Part shown: in pieces, positions 1-6,994 of the stretch
Layout of the letters: each line of letters opens with the position of its first letter
Numbering within the stretch: the first letter of the stretch is position 1
NCBI RefSeq assembly: GCF_035609205.1
Contig: NZ_CP141184.1
Coordinates: 1,302,001-1,366,000 of the forward strand
Reading direction: 5' to 3'
DNA: 64,000 nucleotides
Origin: Hymenobacter sp. GOD-10R
GTDB lineage: Bacteria; Bacteroidota; Bacteroidia; Cytophagales; Hymenobacteraceae
The notes under the pieces: model-generated
Told to the model about the DNA's origin: nothing
Databases searched by the model: none
The model's input: the letters and a program-made list of their open reading frames with translations, nothing else
Made by a program: the position numbers and the translations under genes

Positions 1-224
1 AGCTAAAGGCTCATTTCGGCTCGGGCACGCTCGATGGTAAAGTAATCGGCCGTCTGCTAGGTCGCCTAGGTGAAAACACCATCAAGGCAGCTGTTTTTGC
101 AGAAGGTAACACCAAGCCGCGCGTAGAAAACCTAGGCGAAGCATTGCTGAAAGCTGCCAAGTGGGTACAAAGCCCAAATACGACACCAGAAGAAGATCTG
201 GCCAACTCGAACACCAACAGTTAG
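1..224 (+). CDS. C-terminal fragment of an unidentified protein
   Basis: An open frame runs in from the left edge (first complete codon at base 3) and stops with TAG at 222-224, giving about 73 residues. The fragment contains GKVIGRLLGRLGEN, then an Ala/Lys-rich helix-like stretch, and ends in a polar Asn/Thr/Ser-rich tail that is likely disordered. I do not recognise the family from this piece. Coding use matches the rest of the window, including two CTA-GGT Leu-Gly codon pairs and a CTA-GGC. It is followed 16 bases later by a perfect terminator shared with the convergent rplS gene. The start and most of the gene lie outside the window. Confidence 0.6.
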   Translation, partial: LKAHFGSGTLDGKVIGRLLGRLGENTIKAAVFAEGNTKPRVENLGEALLKAAKWVQSPNTTPEEDLANSNTNS

Positions 225-240
225 TCTAGCTACAATAGAA

Positions 241-283
241 GCACAAAAAAGCCGGCTCTTGAAAAAGGCCGGCTTTTTTGTGC
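241..283. terminator. Bidirectional intrinsic terminator
   Basis: Perfect 16-base inverted repeat: GCACAAAAAAGCCGGC at 241-256 and its complement at 268-283, with an 11-base loop. The A-tract on one side and T-tract on the other let it end both the plus-strand gene stopping at 224 and the minus-strand rplS operon stopping at 307. Confidence 0.9.
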
Positions 284-306
284 TTGTTGCGAAAGGCTGT
301 AATAGC

Positions 307-663
307 CTAGCCGCGCTTTTCTTTGATCTTGGCAGCTTTGCCAGCCAGACCACGCAGATAGAACAGACGAGCGCGACGTACTTTACCGCGACGGATCAGT
401 TCGATCTTGTCGATGTTAGGCGACAGCAGCGGGAAAATACGCTCGGTGCCGATCTGGTTTGAAATCTTGCGAACGGTGAAAGTCTCGCCGTTGCTGTTGT
501 TGTTTCTGCGCTGAATAACAACGCCCTGGAACTGCTGAATGCGCTCCTTGTTGCCTTCGCGGATCTTTACGTGCACATTAACTGTGTCACCGGCGGCAAA
601 GGCAGGGAAGCTGGCGCGGCGCTCCTGGGATTCCTGCTGGATAAAATCGAGTAGTACGCTCAT
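307..663 (-). CDS. rplS: 50S ribosomal protein L19
   Basis: A 118-residue protein matching bacterial L19 along its full length: the early [20 protein letters not shown] region, the [10 protein letters not shown] core, the [15 protein letters not shown] segment and the basic [13 protein letters not shown] end. L19 sits at the 30S-50S interface of the ribosome. It is the last gene of the minus-strand order rpsP-rimM-trmD-rplS, the usual bacterial arrangement. A 170-base gap separates it from trmD, and that gap holds a good Bacteroidota promoter at 726-756, so it probably has its own transcription start in addition to any read-through. The ATG at 661-663 is the obvious start. Confidence 0.98.
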
Positions 664-3057: not shown

Positions 3058-4647
3058 TTGAAAGCTTTATCACGAAGAGATTTTCTAACCAAAAGCGCCA
3101 TCATCGGGGCCGGAGCTTATCCGGCTATGTTGGCGCTGAACCTGTTGCCAGCTGCACCGGCCCACGCTTTCAACTTGCAGGGAAGCGGCAAGGGAAAGCA
3201 CATCATTATCCTAGGTGCTGGGTTAGCCGGCATGACGTCGGCGTACGAGCTGACCAAGCTCGGCTACCAGTGTACCGTGCTCGAAGCCCGCACCCGCACT
3301 GGCGGACGATGTTGGAGCATTCGCAATGGTGCCACGGCCGCCGAAACCAACAACCCCCAACAGACGGCACGCTTCGACAACGGACTGTACTTCAACGCTG
3401 GTCCTTCGCGCATTCCACACCACCACCAACTCACGATGCACTACTGTCGGGAGCTAGGGGTACCCTTGGAGGTCTATAACAACGTCAACGAGAGCACTTA
3501 TTACTACGCCGAAGGCAAGGGGCCTTTATCCAACAAGAAAGTACGCGCCCGCGAAGTGCACAATGATATGCGGGGCTACATGAGCGAGCTGCTCGCCAAA
3601 GCCGTCGACCAACGCAAGCTCGATACGGGGCTGACCCAGGAGGATGCCGCCAAAGTATTGGAGTACCTAAGAGCTGAAGGAGGATTGGATATTGATAAGC
3701 TCTACAAAGCTTCTGCCCGCCGGGGCTACACGGAAGCGCCGGGGGCGGGCACTCATGCTGGTAAGCTAGGTGACCCACTAAAGCTGGCAGAAATCATTCA
3801 GTCGGGCTTGCTTGACCCCGATTTTTACAACGTCGCCGAGTACACCTACGAACTTCAAATGACCATGTTCCAAGCCGTCGGCGGCATGGATCAGATTGCA
3901 AAGGCGCTGGAGAAAAGAGTAGTTGGAAACCTGAAGCTAGGAGCCGAAGTAACGGCCATTCAGAACCAGACGGAAGGGGTGAAGATCACCTACAAGGACC
4001 AGAAAGGCACGCACGAGCTAATCGGCGACCTGTGCATCTGCACGCTGCCGTTGCCGGTGCTGAGCAATGTCAACCACAACTTCTCCTCCGATGTAAGCCG
4101 GGCTATCGACTTCGTGCCTTACATCCAAACCGGTAAGATCGGGCTTCAATTCAAGCGGCGCTTTTGGGAGGAAGACGAGCAGATTTTTGGGGGAATCACG
4201 CACACCAACAACGACTTAACGCAAATTTTTTATCCTTCCTACGACTACCTAGGTAAGAAGGGCATCCTCATTGGCTACTACAACTTCAATGAGAAGGCCA
4301 AGAAGGTGGGGGATCTGACTTACCAGGAGCGGGAAAAGCTAGCCTTGCAAAAAGGACAGCTTATTCACCCGCAGTACCCCAAGGAGTTCGAACAGTCATT
4401 CTCGGTGAGTTGGCACAAGCTGCCTTATAGCCTAGGTGGCTGGGCCTTGTATAACTCCGACGAGCGCAAAACGCACTACGCAGCACTGCTGAAGCCAGAG
4501 AAGAACGTGTATTTCGCCGGTGAGCATACCACATACCTCACCGCGTGGATGGCTGGCGCCTTTGAATCGGCGCGCAGTGTGGTGGCTGCCGTGCATGGCC
4601 GCTTGAGTGAGCAGCGGTTGAGCTACCCCAGCGTGGGCAGTAACTAA
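3058..4647 (+). CDS. Tat-exported flavin monoamine oxidase
   Basis: A 529-residue FAD-dependent amine oxidase. A twin-arginine signal (SRRDFLTKSA, residues 5-14) and hydrophobic stretch end near PAHA at 34-37, so the protein is probably folded with FAD inside and exported by Tat. The Rossmann motif GAGLAG is at 53-58, followed by the TVLEARTRTGGRCW stretch typical of the amine oxidase/LAAO family. The C-terminal FAD motif YFAGEHTTYLTAWMAGA is near 487-503. It should oxidise an amine or amino acid in the periplasm to an imine with H2O2 release; the substrate cannot be read from sequence. The start is a TTG; no in-frame ATG lies upstream before a stop. It is followed after 35 bases by an exported aminotransferase. 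Confidence 0.88.
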   Translation: MKALSRRDFLTKSAIIGAGAYPAMLALNLLPAAPAHAFNLQGSGKGKHIIILGAGLAGMTSAYELTKLGYQCTVLEARTRTGGRCWSIRNGATAAETNNPQQTARFDNGLYFNAGPSRIPHHHQLTMHYCRELGVPLEVYNNVNESTYYYAEGKGPLSNKKVRAREVHNDMRGYMSELLAKAVDQRKLDTGLTQEDAAKVLEYLRAEGGLDIDKLYKASARRGYTEAPGAGTHAGKLGDPLKLAEIIQSGLLDPDFYNVAEYTYELQMTMFQAVGGMDQIAKALEKRVVGNLKLGAEVTAIQNQTEGVKITYKDQKGTHELIGDLCICTLPLPVLSNVNHNFSSDVSRAIDFVPYIQTGKIGLQFKRRFWEEDEQIFGGITHTNNDLTQIFYPSYDYLGKKGILIGYYNFNEKAKKVGDLTYQEREKLALQKGQLIHPQYPKEFEQSFSVSWHKLPYSLGGWALYNSDERKTHYAALLKPEKNVYFAGEHTTYLTAWMAGAFESARSVVAAVHGRLSEQRLSYPSVGSN

Positions 4648-4682
4648 CATTCCAGTATGACAACTTTCTAACTCCAACTACC

Positions 4683-5855
4683 ATGGAAACTTCTATGAAT
4701 CGGCGTAACTGGCTGAAGTCAAGTGCGCTGCTAGCCGGTAGCCTGACTTTTCTGCCCTCAAAGCTTTCGGCGCTGGCGGCCAATCGTTCGGCTGCTCCTG
4801 CGTTTGACCTAGGTGCGCCCTTGACCGACGAAGCTGCGGCACTAGCGGGCCCACCGGAAATGAAAGCACGCTTGTTGGCAAACGAAAATCCGTTTGGGCC
4901 GTCGGAGAAAGCGAAGCAGGCGATGGTAGAAGCCATGTCGACGAGCTACCAGTACCCCTTTATGTACACGCGGGAACTGGTCAAGAAGATTGCCGAACAC
5001 GAAGGCCTGACGCCTGAACACATCATGGTAGATGCTGGCTCTAGCCCACTACTGCAGGCCGCGGCTATTTACTACTCCCAAAAAGGTGGTGCCATCATCA
5101 CCGGCGACCCGTCGTACCGCGACTTGCCCGACAGCGCGAAAGACCTGAATGCGACCATCGTAGAAGTGCCACTCACGAAGGACTACAAGTTAGACCTCGA
5201 TGGAATGGAAAAGAAGGTAGGCGCTGGCACCGCACTGATGTACTTGTGCAACCCGAACAACCCGACGGGCACTGTGCTCGATACGGCCAAGCTGAAAGCC
5301 TTCTGCGAGCGAGTATCGAAGAAGGTGCCCATCTTCATCGACGAGGCCTACATCGACTACGTGCCTGACCCACAGGCCACCACTATGATGGATGCCGTGA
5401 AGAAAGGGCAGAACGTCATTGTGGCGCGCACCTTCTCGAAGCTGTACGGCTTTGCTGGCTTGCGCGTGGGGTATATCGTGGCGCAGCCCGAAACCATCAA
5501 GCTGCTAAGCAAATACACTGTAGGCGGCATGAGTATTTCGGCGCCGGCTATCCGCGGGGCCTTGGCCACTTACCAGGATCAGGCGTTCATGAAGGATACT
5601 TTGCAGAAGACCCTAGCTTCTAAGCAGTTCTTATATGAGACGCTTAAAAAGGAGGGCTACGAGTACATTCCTTCCTCGACCAACTTCGTGATGTTCCCGC
5701 TGAAAATGGAGGGCAAGCGCTTCGTGGAGGAAATGGCGCGGCGTGGCGTGGGCATCCGCAACTGGAAGTTCAACAACCAGGAATGGTGTCGCGTGAGCAT
5801 CGGTCGCATGGACGAAATGCAAGCCTTTGCCGATGCTTTCAAGCAACTATCCTAG
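4683..5855 (+). CDS. Exported PLP-dependent aminotransferase (HisC-like, fold type I)
   Basis: A 390-residue class I/II aminotransferase resembling histidinol-phosphate aminotransferases. LLANENPFGPSEKA (about 60-73) and NPNNPTG (190-196) are family motifs, and Lys253 in TFSKLYGFAGLRVGY is the PLP lysine. Unlike cytoplasmic HisC it begins with NRRNWLK and a hydrophobic segment to about residue 34, a Tat-like signal, so it is likely periplasmic. It lies between a Tat-exported amine oxidase and a secreted Hint-domain protein in one apparent operon. No his genes are nearby, which argues against histidine synthesis. The substrate is unknown. An internal ATG at 4695 would keep the signal. Confidence 0.88.
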   Translation: METSMNRRNWLKSSALLAGSLTFLPSKLSALAANRSAAPAFDLGAPLTDEAAALAGPPEMKARLLANENPFGPSEKAKQAMVEAMSTSYQYPFMYTRELVKKIAEHEGLTPEHIMVDAGSSPLLQAAAIYYSQKGGAIITGDPSYRDLPDSAKDLNATIVEVPLTKDYKLDLDGMEKKVGAGTALMYLCNPNNPTGTVLDTAKLKAFCERVSKKVPIFIDEAYIDYVPDPQATTMMDAVKKGQNVIVARTFSKLYGFAGLRVGYIVAQPETIKLLSKYTVGGMSISAPAIRGALATYQDQAFMKDTLQKTLASKQFLYETLKKEGYEYIPSSTNFVMFPLKMEGKRFVEEMARRGVGIRNWKFNNQEWCRVSIGRMDEMQAFADAFKQLS

Positions 5856-5886
5856 CTCTCAGTACCCGACCATATCATTCACAACC

Positions 5887-6879
5887 ATGCACAAACGCAT
5901 ACTAATCCTTGCTTTCTCGCTGCTCAGCATAGGCACTTTGCAGGCGCAAACCAATCCGCGCCCGCTTACCCTCGATGAGTACAAGAAAGCCAAAGCTTTT
6001 CAAATCAAAGACCCGGATACCGAAACCTATGTCAAGTTCGAAAATTCGTACATTCTCGACCGGTATGAGATGCGCAAACCGTATTTCATCACTGGTGATG
6101 ACGGCTTGAAAAAGCGCATGGACCTGTACAAGCTCATTGCCAAAGACGGTATGCAGGAGCTAGGTCTGGTGGTGTTCTACACGAATGAGAAAGGCAAGCG
6201 CTACCAAACGCTGGTACCCGATTTCACGGCCGATGGCAAAGTGTGGGAGCAGTACTTTGAAGACATTCACGCCATCGACAAGGAAGAGAAGAACTTCGTG
6301 CTGAAGCTTTCCTATGTGCTGTCAAAGGAGATGAGCTATCAGCAATACAAGAACATCAACCAGGGTAAAGACCTGAAGCTAGAGTCGGCCACGTATGGCA
6401 ATGACATTTGCTTCCCCGGCGACCAGGAAGTGGCCATGGCGAGTGGCGGCAAGAAGCTCCTGCGCGACATTCGCCCCGGCGACCGAGTAGTAACCGTTGA
6501 TCCTAAGACCAAGCAGGCCACCATCACGCAAGTGAAGGAGTTGGTAGCTCATGACGCCAGCAACTACGCCATCACGCGCCTGGTAACCGTCTCGGCCCGT
6601 GAAGTAGCTAGCCCAAAAGCTACGGAAGTACACTTGACCAGCCAAGTGCTCGAAGCTACTCCCAACCACCCAATGATGACCCGCGAGAGTCAAAAGAAGA
6701 TGGGCGAAATCCGGGAAGGCGAAGAGGTGTTGTGCCTCAACAAAGTCACCAAAACCTACGAGCCGTACACAGTACTACAGAAGAAGGATTATGCTGGCGG
6801 CGTACAGAAGGTGTACAACATGGTTGCCGCAGAAGGCACTACGTTCCTGATGAATGGCGTAATGGTGATGCAGAAGTAG
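5887..6879 (+). CDS. Secreted protein with C-terminal Hint (hedgehog/intein-type) domain
   Basis: A 330-residue protein. MHKRILILAFSLLSIGTLQA is a Sec signal. Residues 20-170 are a mixed alpha/beta region I do not recognise. A Hint domain starts at Cys175 (CFPGDQEV), continues with LLRDIRPGDRVVTVD, has the block-B-like TPNHPMM with His261, and ends with VYNMVAAEGTTFLMNGVMVMQK-type strands at the C-terminus. Hint domains cleave themselves at the N-S or N-O shift site. The terminal Asn plus Cys/Ser/Thr needed for splicing is absent, so only release of the N-terminal part is expected (inference). I chose the ATG at 5887 because the longer frame from 5827 overlaps the aminotransferase and lacks a leading signal. 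Confidence 0.8.
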   Translation: MHKRILILAFSLLSIGTLQAQTNPRPLTLDEYKKAKAFQIKDPDTETYVKFENSYILDRYEMRKPYFITGDDGLKKRMDLYKLIAKDGMQELGLVVFYTNEKGKRYQTLVPDFTADGKVWEQYFEDIHAIDKEEKNFVLKLSYVLSKEMSYQQYKNINQGKDLKLESATYGNDICFPGDQEVAMASGGKKLLRDIRPGDRVVTVDPKTKQATITQVKELVAHDASNYAITRLVTVSAREVASPKATEVHLTSQVLEATPNHPMMTRESQKKMGEIREGEEVLCLNKVTKTYEPYTVLQKKDYAGGVQKVYNMVAAEGTTFLMNGVMVMQK

Positions 6880-6935
6880 AGGTACCTACTTGTGTTTCTT
6901 GTTGAACGACTAACGTCAGAACGAAACCTAGGTGT

Positions 6936-6975
6936 AACAAAAAAGGCGGCTCTGCAAAGAGCCGCCTTTTTTGTT
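6936..6975. terminator. Bidirectional intrinsic terminator
   Basis: Perfect 18-base arms (6936-6953 and 6958-6975; AACAAAAAAGGCGGCTCT and complement) with loop GCAA. It ends both the plus-strand Hint gene operon and the minus-strand desaturase. Confidence 0.92.
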
Positions 6976-6994
6976 GTGATAGAAGCTAGATAAG

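Follow-up and report, generated by a model that had tools for sequence, protein, structure and literature searches.

HisC-like aminotransferases are normally cytoplasmic, as an earlier note on the DNA studied here had remarked, and PtaA provides the precedent for one that is not. The available part of PMC6206403 describes this HisC-like transaminase as exported by the twin-arginine translocation (Tat) pathway and active in the Pseudomonas periplasm on the glutamate side chain of pyoverdine. In L-amino-acid oxidases that use flavin adenine dinucleotide (FAD), the substrate-pocket residues, a carboxylate-binding arginine and tyrosine and a water-holding lysine, are conserved (PMC9331233, available part). 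Hedgehog Hint domains attach a small molecule through a thioester, and a histidine in place of their general base Asp46/303 leaves them active and lets them accept a wider range of sterols (PMC9163320, in the text available). Bacterial intein-like (BIL) domains of the B type are defined by N-terminal motifs without the C-terminal motif, and the hosts of BIL domains are non-conserved and carry hypervariable regions (accessible part of PMC7765530). Some inteins cyclise glutamine (PMC8175363, accessible part). Here we describe three adjacent plus-strand genes of Hymenobacter sp. GOD-10R, located in a stretch of 64,000 nucleotides (the window; contig NZ_CP141184.1, positions 1,302,001 to 1,366,000) of a 7.5 Mb genome. 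They encode an L-amino-acid oxidase-like protein (gene 1), a HisC/PtaA-like aminotransferase of the pyridoxal phosphate (PLP) type (gene 2) and a protein in which an N-terminal domain (N-domain) precedes a Hint domain (gene 3). We read the trio as a self-contained module that deaminates L-amino acids outside the cytoplasm and includes a partner protein that processes itself, and give this reading a probability of about one half.

The genes follow one another with gaps of 35 bases (genes 1 and 2) and 31 bases (genes 2 and 3), and the coordinates of the open reading frames (ORFs, Table 1) agree with the cluster that the earlier note had drawn. Genome contigs were scanned with gene 3 only; 122 stretches matched, 93 of them encode a relative, and 80 loci were kept, spanning Hymenobacter, Rufibacter, Pontibacter, Adhaeribacter, Mucilaginibacter, Pedobacter, Chryseolinea, Chitinophaga, Puia and others. 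At every one of these 80 loci genes 1 and 2 are matched as well, on one strand and in the order 1-2-3; this comparison showed matches to the two genes above 60 bits. Because every locus found through gene 3 holds the other two genes in a single order, the linkage is more than chance. The next most common flanking family, among 1003 ORFs, is present at 15/80 loci, and no fourth shared gene was found among ORFs of at least 110 amino acids at the 80 loci. The lowest identity to the window is 53% for gene 3, 57% for gene 2 and 66% for gene 1; among the named matches of gene 3 the best, at 95% identity, comes from Hymenobacter crusticola. Gene 1 proteins were extracted from 79 of the 80 loci, the gene being cut by the contig start at L058. 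Gene 1 is in two pieces at L047 and L072, and the frame-broken gene 1 of L072 and the short-frame gene 3 of L073 and L097 were left out before alignment.

In a sample of 296 genomes across the phylum, gene 1 (E ≤1e-60) occurs in six, and the trio is adjacent in all six, with the order 2-1-3 in G386 and two copies of gene 2 in G282. Gene 3 (E ≤1e-6, four candidates scored per genome) was found in eight, namely these six, G046 and G060, the last with the Hint part only; a match over most of its length was seen in the six and in one more. Relatives of gene 2 (E ≤1e-60, up to six candidates scored per genome) are present in 31. Among 120 genomes of the same genus, gene 2 at the same threshold is in 10, of which nine have the whole trio, while in the tenth gene 2 lies at a contig end. 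Pairwise protein distances over 77 sets correlate at 0.87 for genes 1 and 2, 0.90 for genes 1 and 3 and 0.85 for genes 2 and 3, while permutations (500 each) reached at most 0.25. Taken together, the shared linkage, distance correlation and spread indicate a module that is patchy yet travels and evolves as one. The neighbourhood survey proposed in the earlier note thus places the trio far beyond close relatives, in many genera. The patchiness (6/296 phylum genomes, 9 or 10/120 in the genus) and the unconserved flanks would also suit a co-transferred cassette whose genes share one promoter and no common biochemical pathway. We consider this very improbable, since the order is kept over 80 loci despite the divergence given above, and the exceptions encountered amount to two partial sets (G046 and G040) and the uninformative contig of G052. 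Duplication of gene 2 was seen as tandem copies at L125 (8944-11383, in G282) and as a second copy after gene 3 at L060 (6758-10468).

By family, as its sequence matches indicate, gene 1 is an L-amino-acid oxidase. It matches Amino_oxidase PF01593 over residues 56-512 (E 2.7e-56), and its best PDB match is 2jae, the L-amino-acid oxidase of Rhodococcus opacus (residues 39-519, E 3e-103). Further L-amino-acid oxidases follow in the PDB ranking, and human MAO-B does no better than E 5e-12. Residues R118, Y408 and K360 are invariant in all 79 aligned proteins, window included, and on our reading of the alignment they pair with the arginine, tyrosine and lysine of 2jae and of an ancestral tetrapod L-amino-acid oxidase; for 2jae, the numbering of the carboxylate arginine and tyrosine and of the water-holding lysine is assumed. 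The dinucleotide-binding motif (G53, G55, G58 and E76) is likewise invariant in 79/79. Since L-amino-acid oxidases are the most similar proteins and the residues that hold the substrate carboxylate are kept, ‘amine oxidase’ is too loose a name, and a plain amine or polyamine oxidase was ruled out on the same PDB ranking. The periplasmic amine processing suggested in the earlier note therefore survives in part: the conserved unit and the export-type signals fit it, but ‘amine’ gives way to L-amino-acid deamination. A role of gene 1 in anti-phage defence was also rejected, the PADLOC match to a C-3',4' desaturase model (PDLC01086, E 3.1e-43) being taken as a general flavoprotein superfamily match. 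The TTG start at window position 3058 is common across genera (of 79 homologues, 56 have TTG, 12 ATG and 11 GTG, with starts chosen by a simple script) and may hold down expression of the oxidase gene.

Gene 2 belongs to Aminotran_1_2 PF00155 (E 9.9e-52), and its PLP lysine K253 is invariant in 81/81 proteins. The closest subfamily is PRK09105, at 279.6 bits against a cut-off of 444. Scores were 251.1 bits for HisC TIGR01141 (cut-off 276.55) and 227.6 bits for the PtaA NCBIfam equivalog NF051461 (cut-off 500), the fourth-best match; with both curated cut-offs missed, gene 2 was not accepted as a cytoplasmic HisC or as a PtaA orthologue. Anti-phage defence was rejected as well, with only weak PADLOC matches to DndA and SspA (E 0.002-0.005). 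An oxidase and a transaminase of these kinds both require a free alpha-amino and alpha-carboxyl group. This shared requirement, the place of PtaA among the matches and its periplasmic modification of pyoverdine (PMC6206403, available part) would be in keeping with two tailoring enzymes whose target is a secreted peptide or small molecule that bears a free L-amino-acid group, in the way that PvdN and PtaA work on pyoverdine in the periplasm, while the gene 3 protein carries, binds or exports the product. We regard this as unlikely: the loci have no biosynthetic or transport gene in common next to the trio, where the next family reaches 15/80 loci, and gene 2 falls far under the PtaA cut-off.

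We infer export of all three proteins from their export-type signals. The earlier note had named two twin-arginine enzymes of the FAD and PLP types, and both the family assignments and the conservation of the signals bear this out. The twin arginine R6R7 of gene 1, together with F9, is invariant in the 79 aligned proteins; in gene 2, R7R8 are kept in 81/81 proteins and are the only invariant residues upstream of residue 62. In both signals a hydrophobic stretch follows the twin arginine. Outside the twin arginines the two Tat-type signals are mostly variable. The host genome has one gene for TatC. At L125 and L126 an R-K pair appears as a parallel change in the two proteins within one family-level clade.

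The third protein, to which the earlier note had assigned an export signal and a Hint domain, has both. Hint PF01079 matches residues 171-298 (E 1.3e-12), the fold is predicted with confidence, and the horseshoe Hint fold, the first cysteine and the TxxH motif that serve N-terminal release are all present (Table 1). On a reading by sequence, His222 would lie one or two residues off hedgehog Asp46/303. Structural alignments (2in9, 175..329 to 1..440; 5i0a, 175..330 to 1..441) set Gln329 and Lys330 at the intein terminal Asn and +1 positions. Both columns are invariant in 79/79 proteins, and Gln-Lys are the last two residues in 73, the other six having tails of three or four residues. Over the same 79 proteins residue 328 is M, L, K, R or S and never His, and residue 318, taken as the block-F His position, is S, T, D or N. 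Judged by these motifs, the Hint domain should cut at its own N-terminus only; protein splicing as an intein was ruled out on the absence of the C-terminal machinery. A polymorphic toxin was ruled out too, as no sequence follows the Hint domain and no partner is shared beyond the trio. For anti-phage defence, gene 3 gave no PADLOC match. Elsewhere in the genus, at L011 and L012 (G025 and G018), there are Hint domains of the pre-toxin type with a His-Asn end followed by a further C-terminal domain. A second Hint cysteine, Cys283, is present in 77 of 79 core-family proteins and missing in 2/4 independent close relatives and in 7/7 distant homologues and paralogues; it is possibly a redox switch beside an enzyme that produces hydrogen peroxide.

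The part predicted to be released is the more conserved part of gene 3. Over 77 sets pairwise identity averages 0.73 in residues 25-157, 0.58 in the linker (residues 158-167), 0.94 in the hexamer TYGNDI before the cut and 0.58 in the Hint domain. The N-domain model (residues 22-174) has a predicted local distance difference test score (pLDDT) of 87 and a predicted template modelling score (pTM) of 0.80. The hexamer reads TYGNDI in 67 of 79 proteins, TYGSDI in five, TYGTDI in four and TYSNNI in three; this conservation is partly selected because TYGNDICF was one of the six search patterns.

Such a fixed end at the scissile bond, together with Lys330, which is invariant and takes the +1 place of inteins, would also fit a released domain that is covalently modified. 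An amine or other nucleophile, supplied or later acted on by the enzymes, would capture the Hint thioester, by the chemistry with which hedgehog domains attach a small molecule (PMC9163320, available part). We think this quite improbable. The lysine and the hairpin histidine are kept in three same-genus Hint proteins with unrelated N-domains, and two loci of this kind, L021 and L022, have no gene 1 or gene 2 match above 60 bits; Gln329 is replaced by Ser in those three proteins and by Asp in four distant homologues; and the Hint domain lacks the penultimate and block-F histidines that inteins have. A more specific form of the idea is a hedgehog-like ligation with an amino acid. The Hint thioester would hand the TYGNDI end to a side-chain amine of lysine, either Lys330 or free lysine, leaving at the C-terminus a free L-alpha-amino acid group that the oxidase and transaminase convert to a 2-oxo acid, so that the secreted protein carries a reactive carbonyl tag. 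This reading is attractive because one protein modification would account for all three genes together and a lysine occupies the +1 position, and we lowered it to a very slim chance because that lysine and the hairpin histidine are common to the three Hint proteins with other N-domains. In a wider set the two residues are kept in 12/12 sequences, in two of which one Asn follows the lysine. One of the Hint proteins with an unrelated N-terminal part is encoded in the same genome (L021, 6598-8298, 566 amino acids, with relatives at L009 and L010); it is of exported type and ends in a Hint domain with the cysteine, TPNHP, the hairpin histidine and a terminal lysine. A gene near the Hint protein in L021 and L022 resembles what we take to be 4-hydroxyphenylpyruvate dioxygenase.

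By the chemistry of their families, the oxidase gives an oxo acid, ammonia and hydrogen peroxide, the aminotransferase transaminates, and the Hint domain cleaves through a thioester. In the deamination module that we favour, the two enzymes would fold around FAD and PLP in the cytoplasm and leave by Tat. In the periplasm the oxidase would then convert its L-amino-acid substrate to a 2-oxo acid with release of ammonia and hydrogen peroxide, and the transaminase would move amino groups to or from a related 2-oxo acid. The gene 3 protein would leave by Sec and form a thioester at Ile174-Cys175. Attack by water or another small nucleophile would free the N-domain with a TYGNDI C-terminus, as in hedgehog or B-type BIL domains, and the freed domain would work with both enzymes, most probably in a binding or regulatory role. 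An oxidase could also serve nutrition or antagonism, deaminating external amino acids for nitrogen or directing peroxide against neighbours, with the Hint protein in an accessory role, its cleavage serving to set the timing or to damp the peroxide. A setting that may be of this sort is seen in the distant relative G046, where a second exported-type aminotransferase stands among SusC-, SusD- and AEC-type permease-like genes (L020, 10465-17607), suggesting uptake of amino acids or oxo acids. This nutritional or antagonistic reading leaves unexplained the near-fixed C-terminus of the released part and the presence of gene 3 beside gene 1 in all six phylum-sample genomes with gene 1, and we hold it to be doubtful.

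Several observations weigh against the deamination module. The link among the three genes is so far one of genetic linkage, which may stem from common regulation or from transfer and need not mean a single pathway, and the activity, localisation and cleavage of the proteins, like their substrates and joint action, are predicted from sequences and models. Gene 2 relatives occur in 25 of the 296 genomes besides the six with the trio. In G046 gene 1 is missing and genes 2 and 3 are present; in G040 genes 1 and 3 are divergent, with no gene 2 within the 17 kb examined; and in G052 gene 3 stands by itself on a 5-kb contig, whose roughly 430 bases upstream of it are too little DNA to inform on the trio. 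R-K replaces R-R in both enzymes of G247 and G282, which belong to another class, and makes Tat export less certain there. The search patterns included TYGNDICF, NHPMMTRE and MNGVMVMQ, so part of the conservation at these sites across the 80 loci comes from selection by the search. Of eight homologues from the genome search, four read TYGNDI, TYGTDI or TYGSDI, and the four distant ones have TDYDV (twice), DPNDF and EEYNF at this site; all eight keep the cysteine, TxxH, the hairpin histidine and the lysine, and Gln329 is kept in only four. Finally, in Foldseek a Tetrahymena BIL domain and inteins outrank hedgehog 1at0 (rank 14), and the Hint domain is not specifically hedgehog-like.

The cluster is closed by a single terminator, as the earlier note had proposed. 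The hairpin folds at -32.9 kcal/mol (z -8.1), with 0/200 shuffles equally good, and was not picked up by a simple terminator scan; being symmetric, it can also serve a convergent gene. The adjoining genes on either side are on the minus strand, look like housekeeping genes and lie outside the unit. At L018 (9115-10113, in G040) an AraC-type regulator-like gene stands between the divergent Hint and oxidase genes.

Table 1. Positions of the trio and its features in the window
Feature	Position	Strand	Evidence
Gene 1: L-amino-acid oxidase-like FAD protein, 529 amino acids, TTG start, Tat-type signal	3058..4647	+	
Tat-type signal, gene 1 (SRRDFL ... APAHA|F; cleavage point inferred)	3058..3168	+	
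Gene 2: HisC/PtaA-like PLP aminotransferase, 390 amino acids, ATG start, Tat-type signal	4683..5855	+	
Tat-type signal, gene 2 (NRRNWLK...; end inferred)	4683..4781	+	
Gene 3: Sec-type exported N-domain and Hint, 330 amino acids, ATG start	5887..6879	+	
Sec signal peptide, gene 3 (LQA|Q, inferred)	5887..5946	+	sequence; helix 2-16 in structure model
N-domain, residues 21-174, predicted released	5947..6408	+	structure model, conservation
TYGNDI, putative C-terminus of released domain	6391..6408	+	
Hint domain, residues 175-330	6409..6876	+	Pfam; structural matches to hedgehog, BIL, inteins
Cys175, N-S acyl shift nucleophile by homology	6409..6411	+	invariant 79/79; 12/12 in wider set
His222, on hairpin where hedgehog has general base; register ambiguous	6550..6552	+	79/79; 12/12 in wider set
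T258-P-N-H261, TxxH catalytic motif	6658..6669	+	invariant 79/79
Cys283, second Hint cysteine	6733-6735	+	
Gln329-Lys330, at intein terminal Asn and +1 positions	6871..6876	+	structural alignment
Hairpin terminator, bidirectional	6935..6976	none	folding energy vs shuffles

Tat-type FAD and PLP enzymes joined to a hedgehog-like self-cleaving protein have no counterpart in the literature searched. No description of a set of Hint protein, amino-acid oxidase and aminotransferase was found there, which is limited evidence of novelty as most subscription papers were outside the coverage. If the cleavage is real, the trio would be a bacterial case that resembles animal hedgehog, and differs from toxins and mobile inteins, in that the released domain is the conserved object. 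Three questions become directly testable: what a Hint domain of this bacterial kind ligates or sets free, why Bacteroidota keep PLP and FAD amino-acid enzymes outside the cytoplasm, and what the orphan N-domain does.

Compared with known systems, gene 1 resembles 2jae and the wider FAD L-amino-acid oxidases in its full-length match and its pocket arginine, tyrosine and lysine, and differs from 2jae in its conserved Tat-type signal and its fixed transaminase and Hint neighbourhood. Gene 2 shares with PtaA the HisC-like class I family, a Tat-type signal and the PLP lysine, whereas its score is well under the PtaA model cut-off and no neighbour is shared beyond the trio. Unlike the hedgehog Hog/Hint domain (1at0; D46H mutant 6tyy), gene 3 has no sterol recognition region, because the protein ends at residue 330; its N-domain gave no sequence or fold match to hedgehog, an invariant histidine lies near the site of the catalytic aspartate, and 1at0 ranks low in Foldseek. 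In contrast to inteins, the terminal Asn is replaced by Gln, the +1 residue is Lys and not Cys, Ser or Thr, and the penultimate and block-F histidines are missing. The His-Asn end of A-type BIL domains is not found either, residues 328-330 being [MLKRS]-Q-K. By motif pattern gene 3 would fit the B-type BIL domains, with N-terminal cleavage motifs and without the intein C-terminal motif; it differs from BIL hosts in the strict conservation of the protein that carries the domain and of the neighbouring genes.

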